This document shows positions 1,370 to 51,705 of a DNA stretch of 51,705 nucleotides, piece after piece; positions within the stretch are counted from its first letter, which is position 1; the number at the start of each line of letters is the position of its first letter. Source of the DNA: a virus. Under the pieces are notes generated by a model. It made no database searches. It was not told the origin of the DNA and saw nothing but the letters and a program-made list of their open reading frames with translations. The DNA is taken from IMG/VR virus record IMGVR_UViG_3300045921_000076, positions 1 through 51,705 of that record; one strand, given 5' to 3'. The position numbers and the translations under genes are program-made.

Positions 1370-1462
1370 CAAGCGGGTAACGAGCAGTGACAAGCGCTGG
1401 CAAGCGCTGGCAAGCAGTGGCAAGCAGTGACAAGCGCAGACAAGTGATAACAAGCGCTAACA
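1370..1462. repeat. Phased 10-bp direct repeats (about nine units, CAAGCNNTRR)
   Basis: Units begin at 1381, 1391, 1401, 1411, 1421, 1431, 1441 and 1451, with a degenerate unit at about 1370. CAAGCGCTGG occurs twice in succession, and variants include CAAGCAGTGG, CAAGCAGTGA and CAAGCGCTAA. The 10-bp period puts each unit on the same face of the helix. This resembles iterons or a cooperative binding array, and AT-rich sequence (CAATATATCA) follows directly. Confidence 0.85.
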
Positions 1463-1583
1463 ATATATCACACGCACATGCATCCATCCACACGCGCCCG
1501 TACCCATACTAGCACCGCACGTGCCAGCATGTACCACACGTGTCAGCTTACAAGCATGCCACAAGTGGGGTTGACGGGGGCTT

Positions 1584-1603
1584 GCGGGTGATTGATTACC
1601 CGC
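1584..1603. other. GC-rich hairpin (GCGGGT / ACCCGC, 8-nt loop)
   Basis: A 6-bp stem, GCGGGT at 1584-1589 and ACCCGC at 1598-1603, encloses GATTGATT. It lies between G-rich and C-rich blocks in the control region. No T-run follows on either strand, so it is more likely a structural or protein-binding element than a terminator. Confidence 0.5.
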
Positions 1604-1762
1604 TCCACACCCGGGGGCTATACCACGTTTAGGCACTTGTGACTTGCGTGCTTGCCGGCGTGCCCGTCACTGTAAATTTTCGCTACTGTGGAGGGGGGTG
1701 TCCCGCGGAGGTAACACAGTGACTTCATTACGCAAAAGTGGGAAGTGTGTTATGTAAGTTTT

Positions 1763-1775
1763 TGTAAATTTTACA
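1763..1775. promoter_or_regulatory. Palindromic operator candidate TGTAAA-T-TTTACA
   Basis: A perfect 6-bp inverted repeat with a one-base centre. A partial copy (CTGTAAATTTT) lies about 95 bases upstream, ending near 1680. Spacing and symmetry fit a small dimeric repressor, but no obvious HTH repressor gene was identified in the window. Confidence 0.45.
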
Positions 1776-1927
1776 GCGCCTTCTTATCGACCATCCCACG
1801 ACCCTACCCACCTCAACAACGCGTCTTAAAATCGCCGCTAGACACCTTTAACTTAACGTTAGCGCTAGTCTAGTGTCCGCGCGCGTACTAATAGTAACAT
1901 ACTTCTCACTGACTTGTAATTTTACTG

Positions 1928-1955
1928 TTGACAACTTTTAGGTACCAATTATAAT
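1928..1955 (+). promoter_or_regulatory. Consensus sigma70 promoter, rightward
   Basis: TTGACA at 1928-1933 and TATAAT at 1950-1955 match the bacterial consensus exactly, with a 16-base spacer. It points toward the late arm beginning at 2243. Spacer and downstream bases (TTTTAG, then GTAA..AGG after the -10) are shared with the promoter at 47723-47750, suggesting common descent or regulation. Confidence 0.85.
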
Positions 1956-2242
1956 CGTAACTAGGGAACACGCAAGATCGCTAACGCTTGCACTAACAAA
2001 CGACGCATGAACGCTCGCTCTCCACACGTGCCGGCATGCAGACTCGTAACGCAGTGTAACGATTGCGCTAACTAGCGGGGGACACATGATAACGCTAGAT
2101 ATATATATACCCGCCACCGCTTAGCAAGCACAAACGTTAATGCATGTTCAAGTAAAGCATATGCATGCAAAGCGTTAGCGCTCGTGCGTTAGCGAGCGTG
2201 TAGAAAAGAGCTAGCTCGAACACTTAAGTAGGAGTGTGTTCA

Positions 2243-2455
2243 ATGCGACACATAGTAACTTTACGACTAACAGACGGCTCCGAAGCAACACTTCCCATGC
2301 TTAGTCTACCACCCGTTATAAGCATAGGCAGTGCTAGACAAAGCTCATCTCCCCTAGCAGACACTTCTATTCTTCCGTTTACAAACAAAACCTTTGCTCG
2401 CATAAACGATACTCTGGTATATGAAGAAGTAGGAGACACTAACGATGACGTTTAA
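2243..2455 (+). CDS. Hypothetical protein, 70 aa, first late-arm gene
   Basis: The ATG at 2243 is preferred over the GTG at 2234 because TAGGAG lies eight bases before the ATG. The protein (MRHIVTLRLTDGSEATLPML onward) looks like a small beta protein followed by a polar tail. It overlaps the start of the terminase small subunit candidate by 11 bases. No family recognised. Confidence 0.65.
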   Translation: MRHIVTLRLTDGSEATLPMLSLPPVISIGSARQSSSPLADTSILPFTNKTFARINDTLVYEEVGDTNDDV

Positions 2456-2888
2456 TCCTAGTTTGCCACAATCAAAATTTAAAGCTTCTTTGTATGCTAA
2501 GCATCCTAAAATCGTGGTTAGCGAACTAACCCCACAACAGTTACAAACCTTAACCAACAACCGTAGCGTTGTTAAATGGGCAGAACAAGAAGGCTTCCTT
2601 GAGTGGCTAGGCGAAAAAGACACCGTTAGACGGCTGTTAGAAGCCACGTCAGAATCCGCCGTAGCTTGTCTTATGAGTATTGTAACCGAAACAGACGTTG
2701 GACCTGCCGGTCGAGTTACCGCAGCTAATCAAGTAGCAGCAGCTCGATTGATCCTTGAATACGCGGGCTTCACTCCCCCATCCCACAAGGTAGTGGAGTA
2801 CCGCGACAAGGACATAGAAAAGATGACCGAAACAGAACTAAAGGATTTTATTGCAACAAATTTAAAGCTTGTCAAGCCGTCCGCGTAA
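2445..2888 (+). CDS. Putative terminase small subunit
   Basis: This 147-aa mainly helical protein shows the layout seen in phage small terminases: a polar N-terminus, a central pair of helices including RRLLEATSESAVACLMSI and GRVTAANQVAAARLILEYAG, and a C-terminal acidic ELKDFI segment. The protein would recognise viral DNA and load the large subunit. Unusually, the large terminase is over 5 kb downstream rather than next to it. AGGAG lies about ten bases upstream of the ATG. The call rests on pattern and position; another DNA-binding role is possible. Confidence 0.5.
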   Translation: MTFNPSLPQSKFKASLYAKHPKIVVSELTPQQLQTLTNNRSVVKWAEQEGFLEWLGEKDTVRRLLEATSESAVACLMSIVTETDVGPAGRVTAANQVAAARLILEYAGFTPPSHKVVEYRDKDIEKMTETELKDFIATNLKLVKPSA

Positions 2889-2928
2889 AGGTATAGTGTT
2901 TAGGTAGGACTAGAGGAGGCTTGTTGCC

Positions 2929-3339
2929 ATGACAAGATCACGCAGTATTATTGCCGATATAGAGTTTCCTCTTGGACCAAAGCCTATACGAATTGAGTTT
3001 GTAAAGTCCCTAAAAGATCCAGATTGTGAAGACGGCGGGCAAATGTTTGGTCACACACTGATGGACGACAACCTTATCCAAATAAACGTTCGTGAACACA
3101 CTAGTTTAGACCACATCTGCTCAACACTGTTTCACGAGCTTATACATGCGTACTTTAACATAACTGGACAGAATCAAACTTTGTCTTATGAACAAGAAGA
3201 ATCCATCGTACGTATGCTAGAATCAATGTTGTTTTGGTTGGTCGACAAACAGCTATTGACTTCTCTACTTCCATGCGATAAATTGATTCCATACTTAAAG
3301 CGAGGTGCCCGTGTCAAACTCTCAGCTCGCAACAGTTAA
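2929..3339 (+). CDS. Putative zinc metallopeptidase-like protein (HELIH)
   Basis: The 136-aa protein carries HELIH at residues 69-73, the HExxH zinc signature, in FHELIHAYFN, with glutamates about 17 residues later (YEQEESIVRML) as possible third ligands, an SprT/gluzincin-like layout. There is no signal peptide. Similar small HExxH proteins are frequent in phage structural regions, where substrates are unknown. GAGGAGG precedes the ATG. Its end overlaps the next gene by 29 bases. Confidence 0.6.
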   Translation: MTRSRSIIADIEFPLGPKPIRIEFVKSLKDPDCEDGGQMFGHTLMDDNLIQINVREHTSLDHICSTLFHELIHAYFNITGQNQTLSYEQEESIVRMLESMLFWLVDKQLLTSLLPCDKLIPYLKRGARVKLSARNS

Positions 3340-3955
3340 CGCAGGCAGAACACTTGTTCTGTTTGATGGCACGCTAACAGGCAACGCTACCAAGACTGTG
3401 AACTTTGTTTTACACGCAGATACGCTACTGCTATCGGTGTTTGTTCGATCGGTTGCTAACTCCGTTACTGTAAGTTGCGACACGTTTACGCTAGAGGGCG
3501 AAGCAAGCGAAGTCATCTTGTTTCCGGCAGTATCGGCACCAACAACCGAACTCATACTTAAAAAAGCAGCTGTTGCTTTAGCTAACTGTAAGTTAAAAAT
3601 AAACCACACCGCCAACTGCGAACTTCAAGTAGTGGCTAAAGGTTTGACAGCAGGAGAACTAAACACAAGGATCCTGTCTGCTAACACCGCAACAGCGTAC
3701 AGCGCATCTGTTACGAACACCGCAGCAGTGTTAATCCCCGCGACGCTCTTTGACCGTAGCGGCTTAGTAATTAAAAACACTTCGTCAGCCAGCGTATATA
3801 TCGGATTTAGTCTCGCAGAAGCTACGATAGCAGGCGGTTGGTTACTGACACAAAACGAATCACTTAGTATCGACCTTGCTGCAGGGCAAGCGGTATTTGC
3901 TGTGCGTGCAACCCCGGGTACATCGGACATACGAATTATTGAGGCAATGGCGTAG
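3311..3955 (+). CDS. Virion-type beta protein with C-terminal DIRIxE domain
   Basis: The GTG at 3311 is preferred because GCGAGG lies just upstream; an earlier GTG at 3305 overlaps that site. The 214-aa product is rich in Thr, Ala, Ser and Val and looks all-beta. Residues from about 150 form a domain (GLVIKNTSSASVYIGFS ... SDIRIIEAMA) that recurs in the genes at 4317-5102 and 5323-5631 and more distantly at 3958-4296. Location among head genes and composition suggest a capsid decoration, head fibre or minor tail role; this is inference. Confidence 0.6.
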   Translation: MSNSQLATVNAGRTLVLFDGTLTGNATKTVNFVLHADTLLLSVFVRSVANSVTVSCDTFTLEGEASEVILFPAVSAPTTELILKKAAVALANCKLKINHTANCELQVVAKGLTAGELNTRILSANTATAYSASVTNTAAVLIPATLFDRSGLVIKNTSSASVYIGFSLAEATIAGGWLLTQNESLSIDLAAGQAVFAVRATPGTSDIRIIEAMA

Positions 3956-3957
3956 TC

Positions 3958-4296
3958 ATGGCAACAATAACCGTAGGTGGTGGCTCAACAAGCAGTGGTG
4001 GTGGTAATAACAACGATATTATATTTACGACTGGCGTAACTAGTAGACCGGTTATCACCTTAGCGGACACAGAACAAACTTTAAGCTTGCCTATTGGTAC
4101 AAAAGCGTTTATGTTAAAGAATGTAGGCAACGTTTCAGTGCGCTACGCTTATACTAGTGGTGGGACGGCTTCTGCCTACGTTACACTTGCGCCACACGCG
4201 AGTAAGTGGATAGACAAACTAGACGCAACTGCGCGATTTATTTATGTAAGATCTAGTGTAGCTGGTCATCAGCTAGAACTAGAGTATTGGGTTTAA
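3958..4296 (+). CDS. Small virion-type beta protein
   Basis: The 112-aa product begins with a Gly/Ser-rich linker (GGGSTSSGGGNNN), followed by a beta domain (AFMLKNVGNVSVRYAYTSGG) similar in layout to the C-terminal domains of its neighbours. It starts two bases after the preceding stop. The flexible N-terminus plus single domain suggests a small decoration or adhesin-type subunit. No enzymatic motif is visible. Confidence 0.55.
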   Translation: MATITVGGGSTSSGGGNNNDIIFTTGVTSRPVITLADTEQTLSLPIGTKAFMLKNVGNVSVRYAYTSGGTASAYVTLAPHASKWIDKLDATARFIYVRSSVAGHQLELEYWV

Positions 4297-4316
4297 CTAA
4301 CTAAAAGGAGAGATTA

Positions 4317-5102
4317 ATGATTAGTAAGGACAAGTTAGGTTTTGATGTAACCGACACCGACACTATTGCCGCTAGCGACAGCGTCGGTGCGTTTTTACGA
4401 GCTAGCGACGGCACGCTGTTGACGCACACTGACGTGAGTGGTAAAAAGGCACTGGACGTTAACATTGCTAACTCAGTGACCACAATCAACGCCGCTAACT
4501 TTGCTGAAGACTCAGCACACACCTCAGGCGCTATCGGTACGCACATACTTGCGGTACGTAACGACACCGAAGGATCGCTAGTATCTACCGACGGGGATTA
4601 CGGTTCTTTGCAATTAGACGCATCTGGTCGCCTTCGTGTTTTGCAGCGAGCTTTATCTAACAGCTCGGATTCAGTCGCTGCTGTGCAATCAGGTACTTGG
4701 ACAATCGACTCGATTACAAACCCTGTACCAGTTGCCATAGACCATGCAAACGACAGCATCAAAATCGGCGACGGTACAAACTTCTTGGCGTTTGTTGGCT
4801 CCACAGGTATTGCACGTACGGCTGACTATCACACAGCAGCTGCTAACTCAGCTATCAGCATTAACAACACGTCAGGTGGAACCGCTCTCGTTGCGTCTCC
4901 CCTAGCAAACCGAACTAGCATGTTTGTGCAAAACCTCGGCAACAAGGCAGTGTTCTTGGGCGTTGGCACCGTAACCAGTGCAAACGGTTTGCGTTTGTCT
5001 CCCGGCTCGGTTTTTGAAGCACGCATTGGCGCTGCTCTTAACCTTAAGGCTATTTCACAAGATGCCTCTGCTCAAGACATTCGAGTACTCGAACTAGCAT
5101 AA
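4317..5102 (+). CDS. Virion-type protein with GDYGSLQLD motif and C-terminal DIRVxE domain
   Basis: The 261-aa protein contains the stretch LAVRND ... GDYGSLQLDASGRLRV (about residues 80-104), a pattern common in minor virion proteins of tailed phages. It ends in the shared domain MFVQNLGNKAVFLGVG ... QDIRVLELA. AAGGAGA lies just before the ATG. It probably forms part of the particle surface. Function inferred from composition and neighbours only. Confidence 0.6.
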   Translation: MISKDKLGFDVTDTDTIAASDSVGAFLRASDGTLLTHTDVSGKKALDVNIANSVTTINAANFAEDSAHTSGAIGTHILAVRNDTEGSLVSTDGDYGSLQLDASGRLRVLQRALSNSSDSVAAVQSGTWTIDSITNPVPVAIDHANDSIKIGDGTNFLAFVGSTGIARTADYHTAAANSAISINNTSGGTALVASPLANRTSMFVQNLGNKAVFLGVGTVTSANGLRLSPGSVFEARIGAALNLKAISQDASAQDIRVLELA

Positions 5103-5115
5103 GGATAATTTTTAA

Positions 5116-5316
5116 ATGTTTACTAAAGATGATGTTGTAAAAGCCGACAAGTTCGCGCAGATTCTCTCCAAAGCCAAGTTTGACATGTCGGTGTCAGACT
5201 GGCTTTTGTTTCATCAACAGCTGATCTGGTATAACCAGTTAATCAAGCGTATACAAGATCATGTGTTTGAACCGGTAAAAATTACCGAAGATGAACCTAA
5301 AAAGTCAAAGAAGTAG
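5116..5316 (+). CDS. Hypothetical protein, 66 aa, helical with basic tail
   Basis: A small, mainly helical protein (MFTKDDVVKADKFAQILSKA onward) that ends in an acidic patch and a lysine-rich tail (EDEPKKSKK). AAGGAT precedes the ATG. It sits between two virion-type beta-domain genes and could be a chaperone or assembly factor for them, but nothing in the sequence proves this. Confidence 0.55.
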   Translation: MFTKDDVVKADKFAQILSKAKFDMSVSDWLLFHQQLIWYNQLIKRIQDHVFEPVKITEDEPKKSKK

Positions 5317-5322
5317 TATCAT

Positions 5323-5631
5323 ATGAGTATTACTTATAACCCAGATCGTATAGACGTTTTAGATACTGAGGGAGTATTTGCAGCGCTCACAGTAACTACA
5401 ACACCTGTCGAAGCTAAAGTGGGCGCAAATCCACTGACAGCTAGACAAGTCTTAGTTTTGCAACCTAAAGATCGTGATATCTTTTATGGGTTCAGCAACA
5501 CGGTCACAGCATCAACGGGCATTGAACTTTTTAGAGATCAAACTATCTCCTTACCTGTAGGACCTAGTGTTAGAGTATGGTTAGTAGCATCAAGCGGTTC
5601 ACGTAACATTCGCATACAGGAAATCGCATGA
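5323..5631 (+). CDS. Small virion-type protein, DIRIxE-family domain
   Basis: Most of this 102-aa protein is the shared beta domain: VLVLQPKDRDIFYGFSNTVT ... RNIRIQEIA. The C-terminal pattern (S/Q/R)-(D/N)-I-R-(I/V)-x-E-x-A aligns with those of the genes at 3311 and 4317. It overlaps the following gene by four bases (ATGA). The ribosome binding site is weak, so translation may be coupled to the gene before it. Confidence 0.6.
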   Translation: MSITYNPDRIDVLDTEGVFAALTVTTTPVEAKVGANPLTARQVLVLQPKDRDIFYGFSNTVTASTGIELFRDQTISLPVGPSVRVWLVASSGSRNIRIQEIA

Positions 5632-29259: not shown

Positions 29260-30600
29260 ATGGACAAAGAAAAAACATTTTGGGAACGCCTGCGTCACAC
29301 GTGGAACCATCTTTATGAAGATGAAGTCCAACCCAAAACCAGTGCTTTAACCGAAAAACCTGCGGAACCTGTCTCTAACCCAGAGCCTTTGCTGCCTAAG
29401 ACACCAGACGTGCCTACTACTCCTTCACCGCCAGCGGACGTAGCCTCAACACAAAAACAGCTAGCAGCCGAAAAACGAGAAGTTCCGACCGATGCCCTTG
29501 ATATGTTAAATCCAAGAGAACGGGCGAGATATAATATTTTAACTCGAGAACTAACAACACTAAAACCAGAAAACGTAACCGACAGGCAAGTACAAAAATG
29601 GGAAACCGATATTGATGTCTTAAGAAAAAGATACAATGTTCCGGACAGTGTATACAAAGATTACATTGATAGTATTAATCGCGCACATGAAACTTACAAA
29701 CAAGAAGTTGACGCGACACGCAAACAACAAGCCTTTAATCACATGTTGGCTGCACTAGGTAACGTGTTTATTGCCCGCTTTGCTGCCGCGGCTAAAGGTC
29801 CAGGCGTACAAGCGATTGACTTAAGTAACGAAATGGCACAAGCGTCTAGAAACTTAGATGCCGCCTTAAAAACCGCAGACAAAAAACTAGACGTGGCGCG
29901 GGAACAAGCACAAAGTGAACGCACGCTACTTAACATTTTACAAGAAAATGAACGCTGGAACGACGCACAAGAGCGTTATAACAAGGCACAGACAACAGCT
30001 CAGCGACAAGAAGCAAAACAAGACGCACAGCGTGAACTTGAGTTTTTGATAAATCAAGCATACCGTAAACAGGCTGCAGCCGAACGGCAACAGGACCGGC
30101 TTGACAGAGCGGACGCAGCACGAGAAGTTAAAGAACTAAATCAAAGGTCACGCCTTGACGAACAAGCACAACGCCGACGTGAAGCTGAAGCAAGAATGTT
30201 ACAAACACGAAGTGATAGACTTGTGTCTGACATAGATAAAATCTTAAACGACAAGAAAATAAAGAATGAAGACGAACGGTTAGCAGCAATCAACACTGCA
30301 ATTACAAAGTCCGCACTACCGATTCCAGCAGAGGCACGTAAAAACTTGACAACGCGTGTAGGCTTTTGGGAATCGATTGCAGGTCCAAGTAAAGAACGTT
30401 TACGTAATGAACTCGAACAAACGGTGTCGGGATCAGTACAACCATATATCGATCGTATACGTTCAGGCGCGATTCGTTCGGTGAGGTTTAAAAAAGAAGG
30501 TCAGCCAGCAATGGATATATCTTACACCGACTATCAAAAAATGTCCGAGTCAGACAAACAACAAATTTTAGGTGACGGATGGACACTCGAATACAAGTAG
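29260..30600 (+). CDS. Coiled-coil putative internal virion protein, 446 aa
   Basis: After an acidic Pro-rich N-terminus, the protein is a long charged coiled coil (residues about 70-330), then a small globular C-terminus containing SVRFKKEGQPAMDISYTDYQ. GGAGGAG lies just upstream of the ATG. It overlaps the lysozyme gene by 22 bases. It belongs with the neighbouring ejection-type proteins; specific function unknown. Confidence 0.6.
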   Translation: MDKEKTFWERLRHTWNHLYEDEVQPKTSALTEKPAEPVSNPEPLLPKTPDVPTTPSPPADVASTQKQLAAEKREVPTDALDMLNPRERARYNILTRELTTLKPENVTDRQVQKWETDIDVLRKRYNVPDSVYKDYIDSINRAHETYKQEVDATRKQQAFNHMLAALGNVFIARFAAAAKGPGVQAIDLSNEMAQASRNLDAALKTADKKLDVAREQAQSERTLLNILQENERWNDAQERYNKAQTTAQRQEAKQDAQRELEFLINQAYRKQAAAERQQDRLDRADAAREVKELNQRSRLDEQAQRRREAEARMLQTRSDRLVSDIDKILNDKKIKNEDERLAAINTAITKSALPIPAEARKNLTTRVGFWESIAGPSKERLRNELEQTVSGSVQPYIDRIRSGAIRSVRFKKEGQPAMDISYTDYQKMSESDKQQILGDGWTLEYK

Positions 30601-31181
30601 TAACCAAAGCGCTTGAGAAGTTAAAACAGTCTGAGGGATTTAGCGATAAGCCTTACTGGGACTTTACTCAGTTAAGTATAGGTTATGGTTCTAGTGTTAG
30701 TGCCGAGGAAGCTGCCTACATAACAGGGGCAGCTGGCATGTCACTTACACAGTTGTTAGCACTAGGACAACGCAAGTGTAATCAAATACTTGCTCAAATG
30801 TCAGCCCCGCGACTCACCGTTCAGCAAGCTTTAGACAGACTTCAAACGCGAGTAGAAAGAGATCTTGATAGGCTAGAATCACTTACCCCCGCCACCGTTA
30901 AACTGTCTGTGACACAAAAAGTAGCACTTGTCGACTATTTGTACAACAAGGGAAACCTTGGACCAAAAGCCACCGCTGCTCTTAAAGCCGGTAAGATACT
31001 AGAGCTAGCCTATGAACTAGACGTAGTTACCGCGGGTGGTAAATTTCACCGAGTAGTCTATGGACGTACTATTGAATCTGTGGTAGAATTACTCTTGTAT
31101 ACACCACACATCGTGGAGTTACCGAACGTACTTAAGTCACTACAAGACAAAGCTTCTAAACGTCCAGGATACACAGCATAA
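30579..31181 (+). CDS. GH24 lysozyme (T4-type muramidase-like)
   Basis: The 200-aa protein has the GH24 active-site block SEGFSDKPYWDFTQLSIGYG with Glu19 and Asp28 at T4-lysozyme spacing (E+9). Ser33 stands one residue early in place of the usual Thr. It would hydrolyse the MurNAc-GlcNAc bond of peptidoglycan. No signal peptide is evident. Lying among ejection-protein genes rather than beside a holin, it may act during entry as well as lysis. It overlaps genes on both sides. Confidence 0.85.
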   Translation: MDTRIQVVTKALEKLKQSEGFSDKPYWDFTQLSIGYGSSVSAEEAAYITGAAGMSLTQLLALGQRKCNQILAQMSAPRLTVQQALDRLQTRVERDLDRLESLTPATVKLSVTQKVALVDYLYNKGNLGPKATAALKAGKILELAYELDVVTAGGKFHRVVYGRTIESVVELLLYTPHIVELPNVLKSLQDKASKRPGYTA

Positions 31182-39758: not shown

Positions 39759-39937
39759 GATCCCTTCCTTCCCCAGTTGTCGCCACGTGTTGCCGTGGGT
39801 GATATATCTATAACTCGTTTGTAGTCGGTGACTTTACAGACACATGATGTTGTGGGCAACTTGTCGCGTGAATCAACTGATCTATACTCGATCACCACTA
39901 CGTTACAGGACTTACATACATAGGTGTAATTAGGCAT
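39752..39937 (-). CDS. FmdB-like zinc-ribbon protein, 61 aa
   Basis: The start at 39937 is supported by AAAGGAG six bases upstream. The protein starts MPNYTYVCKSCNVV and has a second cysteine pair (SCVC) about 25 residues later, a small zinc ribbon of FmdB type. It overlaps the primase by eight bases and the micropeptide by seven. It may be a replication accessory. Confidence 0.7.
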   Translation of the reverse strand: MPNYTYVCKSCNVVVIEYRSVDSRDKLPTTSCVCKVTDYKRVIDISPTATRGDNWGRKGSW

Positions 39938-40724
39938 TGTAGCTCCTTTGTTCATAGGCTTCATATATTTTTTGTTCTATTACTCGGCTATCTAAAGGCG
40001 GCACTGCATGTTCATTGTTCCAATTATAAGCATGACGTACTGCTTCAGAGTAGTCAAGTCCTAGGTCATAACAGATTGTTCCTATTCGCCAAACATGACA
40101 TCTTCTGCCGCCAACACTCACCTTGTCTCCAAGCGCTAATGCTAGTATGTGCGGGCTTACCTTTTCCTGAATTTCTTTTACTGTTGTCGGAGGCTTACGT
40201 GTCCATGGATCAATTACTAACTTATAGTTTCCCTGATGCCTATCTAACAACTGCTTTCTGTGCCCGGGGTTCTTCTCGTGCCATGTTCCAGTCAACCTGT
40301 ACAAAGCCGTGTTGTGGTAGATCGTTAAGTCGGCGTCAGGTGCATGTTGTTTAACCCACTGCTTTTGCGCTTGTGCTACGGTAGTTCCTTCCATTGGTTC
40401 TATTGCCACGTGGAGGTGTATACTACGATTACCACTGGTATATACATCAAAGCTGATATCTTCTGCTTCAAGTTTGTTCGCTAACCTGTATGCGCTTTCG
40501 GGCGTAGAATCAAAGTCCAACAGTAGTTCTTCTGACCGAACAGCTTCTGTTTGTAAGTCTCGAAAGTGACGTCGATCTAGTATACGCTTAACCGTTGATT
40601 CCGAATAAAAATACACAGACCTGAACCCCCCGTGTTTCCACGTAGCTAAGTCAGCTGCGGCAATAAAACGCTCTGGCGTTACATGCGGTCTGCGCACAGT
40701 TGGTGTAACGTAAGCGTAAAACAT
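39930..40724 (-). CDS. Archaeo-eukaryotic-type (AEP) primase
   Basis: The 264-aa protein has the AEP catalytic set: DFD (Asp70 and Asp72) in ELLLDFDST, SGNRSIHLHV (residues 97-106, the sG..HlH nucleotide-binding motif), and LYRLTGTWHEKNPG near 164 (the RlpGt..K region). It would make RNA or DNA primers at the replication fork. The C-terminal 90 residues look helical as in primase C-terminal domains. It lies 20 bases after the polymerase C-terminal gene. Confidence 0.85.
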   Translation of the reverse strand: MFYAYVTPTVRRPHVTPERFIAAADLATWKHGGFRSVYFYSESTVKRILDRRHFRDLQTEAVRSEELLLDFDSTPESAYRLANKLEAEDISFDVYTSGNRSIHLHVAIEPMEGTTVAQAQKQWVKQHAPDADLTIYHNTALYRLTGTWHEKNPGHRKQLLDRHQGNYKLVIDPWTRKPPTTVKEIQEKVSPHILALALGDKVSVGGRRCHVWRIGTICYDLGLDYSEAVRHAYNWNNEHAVPPLDSRVIEQKIYEAYEQRSYNA

Positions 40725-40744: not shown

Positions 40745-41602
40745 TTAGTCTTCACACTTAATAGATGCCAAAGTATCGCACACAGTGAAGCCACCCTTGA
40801 TGGGTATCGTAGGTTGCAGAAGATCGTTAATGTAAGTGTATGCATCTTTAAGCAGCTGAAGTGCCGCTTCGGCGTATGACTCTTCTACTTCCCACACAGT
40901 TTCATCGTGGTAGTCTACAATCCACGGATACATAGGAATACGCCGTGACTTACGTTCATCATTTATGTACGACAGCATAAATAAAAGTATGTTGTGACCA
41001 GTGCGCTGACAAAACGTGTTAACGATGTCTTTAAGACGTGACTCATGCAACAGCGTTGGCATATACAGTCCGTCATAAAACCAACCGCGGTTGAACTCCC
41101 ACTCCGCTACAAGCTTTTGTTCAAACGATGCGATGCCTGCATACAAGGCATGCCAATCTTCTGAAATCCTATCCACTGCTTCTCGTGTTAGAGGCTGTCC
41201 CGATTCTTCGTCGACGACGTTATTTTCGAGGAGGGTTTGATATATCTTAAAACTTCCAGCGCCATACTGCTTAGCAAGATGAACTGTTTTTGAAATGGAA
41301 CGTATGGTCTTAAACTCTTTTTTCGCCGCCGCAATCGTTTCAGGTGTCGGGTTTGAAGGATCATATATAGTCCTCACTTTGTTAGACCACATAGACATGT
41401 GTGCTGCGTTAAACAAGTAGACGTCGTTTGGTTTTGCGTTAGGTCCATACAGCGACATGAGCGTTGGATCTTTAGAATACTCAGTCAGCACTATGGGTTC
41501 AATTGCCGACAGGTCAGTTTGAATAAGTTTGTGTCCCGGTCTAGCTCGCCAACATTCTAAGTATTCTTTAGTCTTTGGTTGCTGCGTAATATTTATCGAC
41601 AT
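40745..41602 (-). CDS. DNA polymerase family A, C-terminal (palm and fingers) piece
   Basis: The 285-aa product carries motif A (QTDLSAIEPIVL, residues about 28-39), motif B (SKTVHLAKQYGAGSFKIY near 100-118) and motif C (VDYHDETVW near 227-235), so the nucleotidyl-transfer residues are complete. It starts MSINITQQPKTKEYLECW, just past the point where the N-terminal piece ends in TGRIAGGGD, so together they form one ordinary polymerase. Its own AGGAAG site lies before the ATG, and a stop codon lies two codons upstream, so it is translated separately. Confidence 0.9.
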   Translation of the reverse strand: MSINITQQPKTKEYLECWRARPGHKLIQTDLSAIEPIVLTEYSKDPTLMSLYGPNAKPNDVYLFNAAHMSMWSNKVRTIYDPSNPTPETIAAAKKEFKTIRSISKTVHLAKQYGAGSFKIYQTLLENNVVDEESGQPLTREAVDRISEDWHALYAGIASFEQKLVAEWEFNRGWFYDGLYMPTLLHESRLKDIVNTFCQRTGHNILLFMLSYINDERKSRRIPMYPWIVDYHDETVWEVEESYAEAALQLLKDAYTYINDLLQPTIPIKGGFTVCDTLASIKCED

Positions 41603-41648
41603 ATTTTAAGTCTTCCTAATAGGTGTTTTAACTCTAAACCGCAGGACG

Positions 41649-42302
41649 TTATGGCGCAACTTCTTGTTTTAAGTACGTAAACTTAGTAATGTATCGCAGT
41701 GCTTCTTCGCTTCGTAAGTCTCCGGATTTTGCATATGACTTAGCGTGAGTGCTGCTTGGTCCTTGGTTATACGCTACTGCAGCCTTACCTGTGTCTTGGT
41801 ATAGATCAAGTAGACGTCTGTAGTAACACGCTCCTGCATACAGGTTGATGGTTGTTTCCCATACGTCTTCGTCAGCGAACTCTGTGATACCGCAGTAACC
41901 TAGTCCTTCCTTAAATGCCGCTCTAGCTACCTGTGTTAGTCCGCGTGGACCAGTAGGTGACTGCGCGTATTTCATGAACCGAGACTCGATAGCAATGATC
42001 TTAATAAACGCACGCCTGTGTTCATCGGTGTCAAATATATTTATGGTAACTTCTACAATAGACTGCGCTAGTATTTGCTTTCGTATAGGTGACAGCGGTG
42101 CATTTACTTGCTGCATCATGTCAATAGCATACTGTCCAATGTTGGTTTTAAGGTTCGTGGGATCTAGACTTGCTTGATATTCATTTACTCGCTTTGGATT
42201 AATCCCCACCACCAGCAATACGCCCAGTAATAGTACCAAACACTTTAAAGCCTGGACGTAGGATGTCTTCCGTACTAAGGTTTTCCAAACACGACCTAAC
42301 AT
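41649..42302 (-). CDS. SLT-type lytic transglycosylase, membrane-anchored
   Basis: The 217-aa protein has a signal-anchor (residues about 18-34, ALKCLVLLLGVLLVVGI), then a Slt fold: Glu106 in AIESRFMKY is the expected catalytic acid, followed by SPTGPRGLTQV and AVAYNQGPSS. It would cleave peptidoglycan in the periplasm. A perfect AAAGGAGG lies six bases before the ATG. The first 104 bases overlap the polymerase N-terminal gene in another frame, so the anchor is encoded over the polymerase TGR motif. It sits between the two polymerase pieces. Confidence 0.85.
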   Translation of the reverse strand: MLGRVWKTLVRKTSYVQALKCLVLLLGVLLVVGINPKRVNEYQASLDPTNLKTNIGQYAIDMMQQVNAPLSPIRKQILAQSIVEVTINIFDTDEHRRAFIKIIAIESRFMKYAQSPTGPRGLTQVARAAFKEGLGYCGITEFADEDVWETTINLYAGACYYRRLLDLYQDTGKAAVAYNQGPSSTHAKSYAKSGDLRSEEALRYITKFTYLKQEVAP

Positions 42303-43578
42303 AGCTTTCCTCCTTTGTAAGATCTCTGTAACTAACTAGCAGTTTACCTAGGTCTCCTAAGAATCGTAGCGCCTTGTTGTCGAGTGATGGTTCTCCCGAT
42401 TCTGTAGTTTTAAGTGCTGTAAATTTAAGTACATCATAAAACAGGTGTTTAAGATCCGGTATTGAGTTTAAGTTAAACCAATGCTCTGCTGGTAAGCTGC
42501 TTAATGCCTGACGCCGCTCATCCCAAGCAATCCACGCAGCGTTGTAACGTTGTCCACTGTTTTGAAGATCTTGAAGCTTAAGATGCCACGCTACCCACCG
42601 TTTACTCAGACTGCCATCTTTTGTTCGGTTGGGCGGTTGCTTGGACATGTGGTTGTGTATCAGGTCTATCTTTTTAGGCTGCTTGGCTAGTAATTCAGCA
42701 TAGGCTTTTTCTTTACGCTCTGCGATAATCTCCTGTACATAAGGCGATTGATAAAACGTATTAACGTACTTGTTGATTTCTGTTAAAAGCTTTTCGCGGT
42801 ATGCTTCCACTCCTGCACGATCGATAGTGATCCCACGTAGCTTCTGTTCGCGGAGCAAAGCGATTTCGTTAAACCACAAAGACGCGTGATCTAAAAGACT
42901 TCCTTCGCCGGTAATAGAATCATATGCTTTAATTAAATCATGATACAACTCATAACAAGCCTCCGCGTCGTTTGCACAGTAAAGCATAAAGCTTTCTGGT
43001 TCGAGGTCAGCAAGTTGAGACATAGCGCTTTTTGGCAGCTTGTGTTTACTTAATAACTGTGTCAGGTTATCTTTGTTGTTCACTGCGGTGTTTAAGACAT
43101 TTTCATTAGCATGATCTAGAGACCATGACTGACCATCCCAACCTTCGGTGCTACATAACTTATACATAACATAGGTACATGCGGCGTAAGATAACTTAAC
43201 GAACGCATACTTTTGTGCATAGTAATCTAACCATGTAGAGTCAAACAATAAATTGTGCGCAATTAAGGGTATGCCGCGAAGTTGAGTAAACAGCGTTTTA
43301 AAGTCGTCAATAGTAAACGCCCGCGTATCTAACGCGACGACAGCGTAAGGGCTGGCAAGTCCTATCGTAAGTATGCGACTATCTGGCGCAAAAGGAGATA
43401 GTCCAGTAGTTTCTAGGTCGATTGCACAAATCTGCTGCGGTGTTAGCCCAAGTATAGCGCGAAGGTCATTGAGCTGTGTCGGGGGGAGTATCTGCACCGG
43501 ACGAAACTTTAGCGGCGTCGAGCGTTTGGATAGCAGCACGTAAGGCGTTTGCGTTAAGGTTGCTGGTTCCTGCATCAT
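42199..43578 (-). CDS. DNA polymerase family A, N-terminal (3'-5' exonuclease and thumb) piece
   Basis: The 459-aa product has exonuclease motif I (IDLETTGL near residue 55), II (AHNLLFDSTWLD near 112) and III (YCANDAEACYEL near 200), a DEDDy proofreading set, then the thumb helices, and ends GTITGRIAGGGD, the T-x-TGR motif that normally precedes motif A. No 5' nuclease domain. The remaining polymerase domain is in a separate gene at 40745-41602. Its start overlaps the upstream gene by 113 bases, with GGGAG before the ATG. Confidence 0.9.
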   Translation of the reverse strand: MMQEPATLTQTPYVLLSKRSTPLKFRPVQILPPTQLNDLRAILGLTPQQICAIDLETTGLSPFAPDSRILTIGLASPYAVVALDTRAFTIDDFKTLFTQLRGIPLIAHNLLFDSTWLDYYAQKYAFVKLSYAACTYVMYKLCSTEGWDGQSWSLDHANENVLNTAVNNKDNLTQLLSKHKLPKSAMSQLADLEPESFMLYCANDAEACYELYHDLIKAYDSITGEGSLLDHASLWFNEIALLREQKLRGITIDRAGVEAYREKLLTEINKYVNTFYQSPYVQEIIAERKEKAYAELLAKQPKKIDLIHNHMSKQPPNRTKDGSLSKRWVAWHLKLQDLQNSGQRYNAAWIAWDERRQALSSLPAEHWFNLNSIPDLKHLFYDVLKFTALKTTESGEPSLDNKALRFLGDLGKLLVSYRDLTKEESYVRSCLENLSTEDILRPGFKVFGTITGRIAGGGD

Positions 43579-45849: not shown

Positions 45850-46036
45850 TGTCGCTCTCCTGCTGTTTAGCTAGTTCCTGTAATAGTTTAAACGTGGTGT
45901 CAAGGCATAGATTAAAAATCACTGACGCGTCTTTAGGGTTCACGCCGTACACTTTACACAAATGTTCATACGCGGGGTAGAGATTTGTTGCGATAGTTAT
46001 TGTGTGACGGCGTTGTTGTCTACTAGTGTTTGGCAT
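45818..46036 (-). CDS. Hypothetical protein, 72 aa, possible DNA-binding
   Basis: The start MPNTSRQQRRHTI is chosen for GGAGGT about eight bases upstream. A basic N-terminus leads into ITIATNLYPAYEHLCKVYGV, a strand-helix-helix layout that could be ribbon-helix-helix-like. Its start overlaps the ClpP-like gene by 14 bases. Function unknown; a small regulator is one option. Confidence 0.55.
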   Translation of the reverse strand: MPNTSRQQRRHTITIATNLYPAYEHLCKVYGVNPKDASVIFNLCLDTTFKLLQELAKQQESDNGILQTKADT

Positions 46037-46691
46037 ATGGTATAACCTCCAAGTAATGTGGTGCAAGAGCTTTTAGTTGAGGAGCTGTCAGCGTGAGTTC
46101 AGTAAGCCACATTTCACTAAAAAACTCCGGCGAGAGCTTTAGCTGCGCTTGTATCATAGTATTGCCCCAGTATTGCAAGGCTTCTAAAGAACTGACTAGC
46201 GCACGTAGTGATACTAAGTTATATGGACCATCCAAATATACTCCAACCGAGTGCCACATGAGGTTTGATAGCTCATGCGCGTAACGCTTATCACAATGAT
46301 TAAAAATCAGAAACGCCGCGCTTGCTGCTTGCCTTGTTACGGTACATACTAACTTTATGTTGTTTACACGCGCTTGATCCATGGCTGTCATGATTTCCAT
46401 CATTGTACTAACACTTCCCCCAGGGCTATTAATTTCGAAGTGTATTTCTGTTACGCCGTCTGCAATCCTATCGCGAATCTCAGACGGGACACCAAAGTGA
46501 TTTAACTGACTTATAGGACCTTCAATCTTGATCAGTGCCGCAGTGGGTGTTCCAGAGTTCCAAAACAGATTGTCTAACGGAGGCGTAAGAGCGTTTGGCT
46601 TTGTGGTTAGGACCAAGAGCGCTAGCGCGGCTAGTGTTGTAACTAAGAGTAATAACACTGCTCCTAACCGCTTTTGTACTGAAGTCAACAT
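46023..46691 (-). CDS. Membrane-anchored ClpP/SppA-like serine protease
   Basis: The 222-aa protein begins with a membrane anchor (residues 9-29, LGAVLLLLVTTLAALALLVL). It then has a ClpP-type crotonase fold: FEINSPGGSVST (oxyanion loop), Ser124 in RQAASAAFL and His147 in LMWHSVG. Phage ClpP-like enzymes usually mature capsids, but this one is in the early arm, far from the capsid genes. It may cut membrane or periplasmic proteins of the host. Confidence 0.8.
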   Translation of the reverse strand: MLTSVQKRLGAVLLLLVTTLAALALLVLTTKPNALTPPLDNLFWNSGTPTAALIKIEGPISQLNHFGVPSEIRDRIADGVTEIHFEINSPGGSVSTMMEIMTAMDQARVNNIKLVCTVTRQAASAAFLIFNHCDKRYAHELSNLMWHSVGVYLDGPYNLVSLRALVSSLEALQYWGNTMIQAQLKLSPEFFSEMWLTELTLTAPQLKALAPHYLEVIPYAKH

Positions 46692-51567: not shown

Positions 51568-51705
51568 GCGGTAACCCCTTTTTTAATACTGTAAGCATGT
51601 CTATGTACAGTTCGGTATCACGACGGTTGTAGTTGTTACGTTCTCCAATAGCTCTTGCATGTTCTAACCAGTAGTCGATGTCATACGGTCCTTCACAGCC
51701 TATAC
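51518..51705. repeat. Terminal overlap, copy 2 (matches 1-189)
   Basis: These 188 bases repeat the start of the window. Differences are C51577 (A at position 60) and one T fewer in the homopolymer. See copy 1. Confidence 0.95.
51560..51705 (-). CDS. Pentapeptide-repeat protein, 3' fragment (variant C-terminus)
   Basis: This is the last 48 codons of the pentapeptide gene, cut by the window end. The missing T shifts the final codons, so the product ends KKGLPHD and stops inside the GP88-like gene at 51560-51562, instead of ending KKVVTA as in the left copy. Only one version is probably correct for a given genome. Confidence 0.85.
   Translation of the reverse strand, partial: IGCEGPYDIDYWLEHARAIGERNNYNRRDTELYIDMLTVLKKGLPHD

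Follow-up and report, generated by a model that had tools for sequence, protein, structure and literature searches.

The window, the whole virus record of 51,705 bases, contains an exact 127-nt repeat near its two ends (63-189 and 51579-51705), which most likely represents the overlap left by circular assembly, and the closure is read through by a second contig that is 99.98% identical. Because of the end repeat and the second contig across the closure, the genome is apparently complete. Three genes lie in succession on the minus strand, namely the two parts of a family A DNA polymerase (polN and polC) and, between them, a gene for an SLT lytic transglycosylase. The features of the locus, in the direction of reading, are:

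42199 to 43578, minus strand: polN, the N-terminal polymerase gene (3'-5' exonuclease, thumb, and palm to the TGR motif), 459 aa; assigned by PHROG and Pfam, with a predicted family A fold
42309 to 42314, minus strand: Shine-Dalgarno AGGAGG of the SLT gene, within polN, read from the sequence
42199 to 42302, minus strand: out-of-frame overlap, 104 nt, encoding the TGR motif of polN in one frame and the membrane helix of SLT in the other
42201 to 42242, minus strand: codons of the SLT hydrophobic helix CLVLLLGVLLVVGI, in the +1 frame over the polymerase codons for FGTITGRIAGGGD
41649 to 42302, minus strand: SLT lytic transglycosylase gene, 654 nt, 217 aa; assigned by Pfam SLT, PHROG, and likeness to T7 gp16
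41985 to 41987, minus strand: codon of SLT Glu106 in ESRF, from alignment to T7 gp16
41603 to 41648, minus strand: spacer from the SLT stop to the polC start, 46 nt, with AGGA at 41617-41614
40745 to 41602, minus strand: polC, the C-terminal polymerase gene (palm and fingers; motifs A, B, and C), 285 aa, N-terminus MSINITQQPK; assigned by PHROG, Pfam, and AlphaFold

The split of a family A polymerase into polN and polC is confirmed. Matches to the PHROG family 17 profile span positions 656-978 in polN and 980-1227 in polC, two ranges that abut, and the Pfam DNA_pol_A coverage of the two proteins is likewise adjoining; the 3'-5' exonuclease domain is found in polN (Pfam PF01612, 7e-11). The polN gene stops directly after TGRIAGGGD (C-terminal end FGTITGRIAGGGD), and polC begins 596 nt beyond this stop. 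A stop codon lies two codons upstream of the polC ATG, so that polC has no hidden N-terminal extension. When joined, the two proteins are one residue longer at the junction than the polymerase of a T5-like phage and one to two residues longer than most intact relatives, in which the length of the linker itself varies by many residues; two separate genes are thus found to join into one intact homologue without loss. Together, the chains contain the DNA_pol_A fold, the TGR motif, motif A (D..E), motif B (R...K.......YG), and motif C (HD). Residues that are invariant in distant phage polymerases are retained in both the exonuclease (including D54, E56, D113, and D204 in joined-chain numbering) and the polymerase (including G452 and R453 of the TGR motif, D488, E493, K563, Y571, N653, Q657, H690, and D691). 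An earlier note on this DNA had placed the split between the TGR motif and motif A, described the join as almost seamless and all motifs as present, and proposed alignment with intact family A polymerases. The gene coordinates, the adjoining profile ranges, the retained residues, and that alignment, with its one to two extra residues, all agree with this description. The gap of 596 bases was also correctly given; the SLT gene had been described as confined to this gap, whereas its start lies 104 nt inside polN.

Relatives of the polymerase were found in viral contigs through degenerate patterns of its conserved motifs. Single-protein queries with polN, polC, and SLT gave no matches in the viral contigs, distant phage polymerases, once aligned, were too heterogeneous to serve as a scan query, and scans of cellular genomes found no relatives. 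The polymerase is one uninterrupted frame across the split point in ten of the 12 relatives found (G003, G006-G012, G016, and G017; 33-38% identity), and tblastn alignments in two of these (G010 and G011; loci L034 and L048) run from polN residue 458 directly into polC residue 2. An eleventh relative (G015) has one polymerase frame with an intein. Given ten relatives with an uninterrupted frame and an eleventh with a single intein-containing frame, the split is not a product of chance. The split arrangement with an SLT gene in the linker was seen in one contig only.

The SLT protein consists of a basic N-terminus, one hydrophobic helix, and an SLT domain at residues 98-187 (Pfam SLT, 8e-12), and it falls within PHROG internal virion and endolysin families. 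The domain aligns with that of T7 gp16, including the glutamate of the ESRF motif (Glu106), which we take to be the catalytic residue from general knowledge of SLT and gp16 enzymes. The basic residues ahead of the helix suggest that the protein would reside in the inner membrane with the SLT domain outside. While the window protein shares the SLT domain and the ESRF glutamate with T7 gp16-type and other SLT lytic transglycosylases, it differs from the gp16 type in being small, apparently membrane-anchored, and encoded among replication genes, with an anchor that is read over another gene. Homologues of SLT are located away from the polymerase, at a distance of about 3 to 11 kb, in five relatives (G007, G012, G015, G016, and G017), and those of G007 and G012 likewise start with a hydrophobic stretch. 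Since relatives carry SLT homologues elsewhere, the window SLT is probably a resident lysis gene that moved. The window also contains a separate phage lysozyme gene (30579-31181) and a gene for a ClpP/NfeD-like serine protease with an N-terminal membrane segment (46023-46691); in G012, a gene similar to this protease is found directly after the SLT homologue (L111 1851-2609).

The start codon of the SLT gene lies in the +1 frame of polN, shortly after a strong Shine-Dalgarno context (AAAGGAGG). The first 34 codons, which encode the basic segment and the hydrophobic helix CLVLLLGVLLVVGI, are superimposed on the polymerase codons for FGTITGRIAGGGD. When the polymerase stretch was recoded into 20,000 synonymous versions drawn with the codon usage of the genome, the +1 frame stayed open in 15% of the versions, and none of the 20,000 was as open and hydrophobic as the actual overlap. 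The same is true of the other in-gene stretches of the window (0 of 7,534). On account of these two comparisons, the polymerase codons at the overlap appear to have been chosen for the second frame. Constraint would therefore act in both frames, as indicated in the +1 frame by the codon test and in frame 0 by the conserved TGR protein sequence. The suggestion that a latent +1 anchor frame exists in all members of the family proved false, the same frame in relatives being closed by stops or less hydrophobic. The tuned overlap over a catalytic motif is notable, although the phage has other long overlaps as well. The upstream neighbor of polN is overlapped out of frame by 113 nt (window 43466-43578), and several early genes of the phage overlap by tens of bases.

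Structural predictions were made for the separate polymerase chains. The AlphaFold model of polC has a mean pLDDT of 90, with Bst, Taq, and Plasmodium apicoplast polymerases as the best Foldseek matches, and the single-chain model of polN (pLDDT 80) matches the fold of family A polymerases. Disorder in the polN model is restricted to the first 11 residues, a short loop, and the last 16 residues, which comprise the TGR hairpin. These last 16 residues would pack against polC, and their disorder in polN alone is what would be expected if polC is needed. Both polymerase frames are fully open (744 codons in total), with no stops or frameshifts apart from the junction. The helicase and other replication genes are kept as neighbors, and searches of the apparently complete genome for further DNA polymerases of families A, B, and C found none. 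An active two-chain polymerase is likely.

The explanation judged probable is that the polymerase was cut in the variable linker that connects the TGR motif to motif A by an insertion of homing or recombination type, and that the two chains associate and work without splicing, with an overprinted SLT gene between them. Under this explanation, polN, SLT, and polC would be translated from three separate starts, probably on one message. The polN chain would supply the exonuclease, thumb, and TGR hairpin, and the polC chain the palm and fingers, which hold motifs A, B, and C; the two would fold as parts of one polymerase held together non-covalently, as shown for the split family B polymerase of Aeromonas phage 25 (PMC2988022). 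The SLT protein would be translated from inside polN, with its membrane anchor encoded by the TGR codons in the +1 frame, and the overlapping stretch would consequently be constrained in two frames. Because mobile elements repeatedly land in this linker in the polymerase family, an insertion there through homing or recombination most likely initiated the split, with the inserted DNA taken over or replaced by the lysis gene.

Judged from the sequences compared, the linker between the TGR motif and motif A has been invaded repeatedly, as illustrated by an intein in G015, a fracture in G005, and the published split of phages MEP401 and MEP402. The polymerase of G015 (L118, IMGVR_UViG_3300024355_000518) is an ORF of 1070 aa with a 309-aa intein in the linker after TGRLAGKSPNLQQ, and this intein is absent from its near-twin G017 (L120). 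In G005 (L065, IMGVR_UViG_3300035698_004006, 1421-5582), the polymerase is in four pieces. The first break is at the same place as the split in the window and holds a 71-aa ORF; the second is beside an endonuclease VII-type gene; and the third appears to be a split intein around an HNH gene, the halves of which were identified by visual inspection of their Cys and Asn-Cys boundaries but gave no matches in a family search. The sister of G005 (G008) has an intact polymerase. For this reason the fractures in G005 and the window look independent, and a single ancestral fracture common to both is disfavored.

These examples suggest an origin that is compatible with two working chains, in which the insertion point is a homing site and the SLT gene travels with, or has replaced, a homing endonuclease still circulating in the same linker among related phages. 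Such an origin is tentatively entertained, at somewhat short of even chances. The intein that is present at the linker in G015 and missing from its near-twin agrees with it, as does the breakage of the G005 polymerase here and at two further points holding endonuclease VII- and HNH-type genes. Against it, the insert in the window consists of only the SLT gene and the 46-nt spacer, in which no homing endonuclease gene or remnant was found; the 71-aa ORF at the matching break in G005 has no family match, and its interpretation as a homing endonuclease remnant found no support; and ordinary illegitimate recombination would look alike. A homing origin of the split in the window may thus be proposed by analogy only. 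The chances are about even that the linker is a standing target for mobile elements in this polymerase family, and that the phage's own lysis gene took the slot here and built its anchor by reading the catalytic TGR codons in the +1 frame.

The possibility that the polymerase is simply broken, with polN and polC as remnants in a phage that depends on the host polymerase, draws on the divergence of the protein. The window polymerase is the longest branch of its family (2.1, versus a median near 0.8-1.0) and, of 108 positions that do not vary among eight intact relatives, it retains 85 and has changed 23. This long branch and the loss of family-invariant residues could reflect an altered or relaxed function, and because of them activity should not be taken for granted. 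Decay is nevertheless unlikely: both frames remain open over 744 codons with the junction as the sole disruption, the catalytic residues are kept, each part has its own start, the helicase and other replication neighbors are retained, and a second polymerase was not detected.

It is very unlikely that the roughly 600 nt between the coding parts splice themselves out as an intron (whether of group I, degenerate, or of some unknown class), with SLT as its internal ORF and splicing restoring one chain. The in-frame seamless join would suit an intron, the U before the putative 5' site and the G at the putative 3' end formally fit group I rules, and group I introns are common in phage polymerase genes (PMC6083498; PMC2993671). 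However, Rfam searches of the region for group I and group II introns, RF00028 included, gave no match at E values up to 10. As a control, the same search found the T4 nrdB intron at 2e-6 and missed the td intron, which is cut off by the end of its locus (one of two recovered). The insert folds no better than shuffled sequences (z +1.4), about 550 of its 600 nt are SLT coding sequence, the SLT start is within the upstream exon and codon-tuned there, and each half of the polymerase keeps its own start. The view in the earlier note that the gap does not hold a group I intron is upheld by both the Rfam search and the folding comparison.

An assembly chimera, in which SLT DNA was wrongly joined into an intact polymerase gene, is highly improbable even though the arrangement occurs in a single contig and 40-44 kb has no second-contig coverage, since the genome closes on itself, the G+C of polN, SLT, and polC is 0.441, 0.440, and 0.437, relatives carry the SLT family, both the start codon and the hydrophobic helix of SLT consist of polymerase DNA whose codon choice is biased, and a stop and a start lie exactly at the split. 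A split intein was rejected, as polN has no residues after GGGD and polC cannot extend upstream past the stop above its ATG.

A split phage polymerase as such is already known in cultured phages. One is that of the infectious Methylophilales (OM43) phages MEP401 and MEP402, in which the family A polymerase is encoded by gp13 and gp15 with gp14 between them (PMC10580990). As in the window, the polymerase is in two genes, the division falls after the TGR motif and ahead of motif A, hardly any residues are lost, and a short ORF occupies the gap. These phages belong to another lineage, their split lies some 25 residues closer to the C-terminus, immediately ahead of motif A, and their insert is a 77-aa ORF of unknown function rather than a transglycosylase; the authors left open the possibility of an intron (PMC10580990). 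Two separately translated chains are also found in the T4-like Aeromonas phages 25 and 44RR, which have a split gene 43 (43A/43B) and in which the phage 25 chains co-purify and are active (PMC2988022, citing Petrov et al. 2010). In contrast to the window, that polymerase is of family B, and its two genes are separated by an untranslated spacer or by a seg homing endonuclease. The PolB gene of jumbo phage MIJ3 is likewise broken into two parts that flank another gene, but its chains carry the halves of a split intein around an HNH gene (PMC6892783), whereas the window has no intein sequence. The assertion in the earlier note that known phage polymerase interruptions are introns or inteins with homing endonucleases is contradicted by the small ORF of MEP401 and MEP402 (PMC10580990) and by the active split gene 43 of a T4-like phage (PMC2988022). 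As far as searches of the literature and sequences show, the new elements are the lysis gene in the gap, the membrane helix over the TGR codons, and the linker as a repeated site of insertion.

If the lysis gene did take over the linker and build its anchor there, a replication enzyme and a lysis enzyme depend on shared nucleotides, such that a change in the TGR region is also a change in the anchor, and polN, SLT, and polC must be inherited together. An essential and highly conserved enzyme motif would apparently also encode a membrane helix in a second frame. The locus would also show, as a natural experiment, whether a family A polymerase remains functional when its chain is divided in two beside the active site, a question raised for MEP401 and MEP402. 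Inteins, fractures, and now an ordinary phage gene have entered at this one linker, which bears on how genes become permanently split. Directly after polC, a 264-aa gene (window 39930-40724) that matches nothing in Pfam or PHROG contains LLLDFD and SGNRSIHLH and resembles primases of the archaeo-eukaryotic type by sequence.
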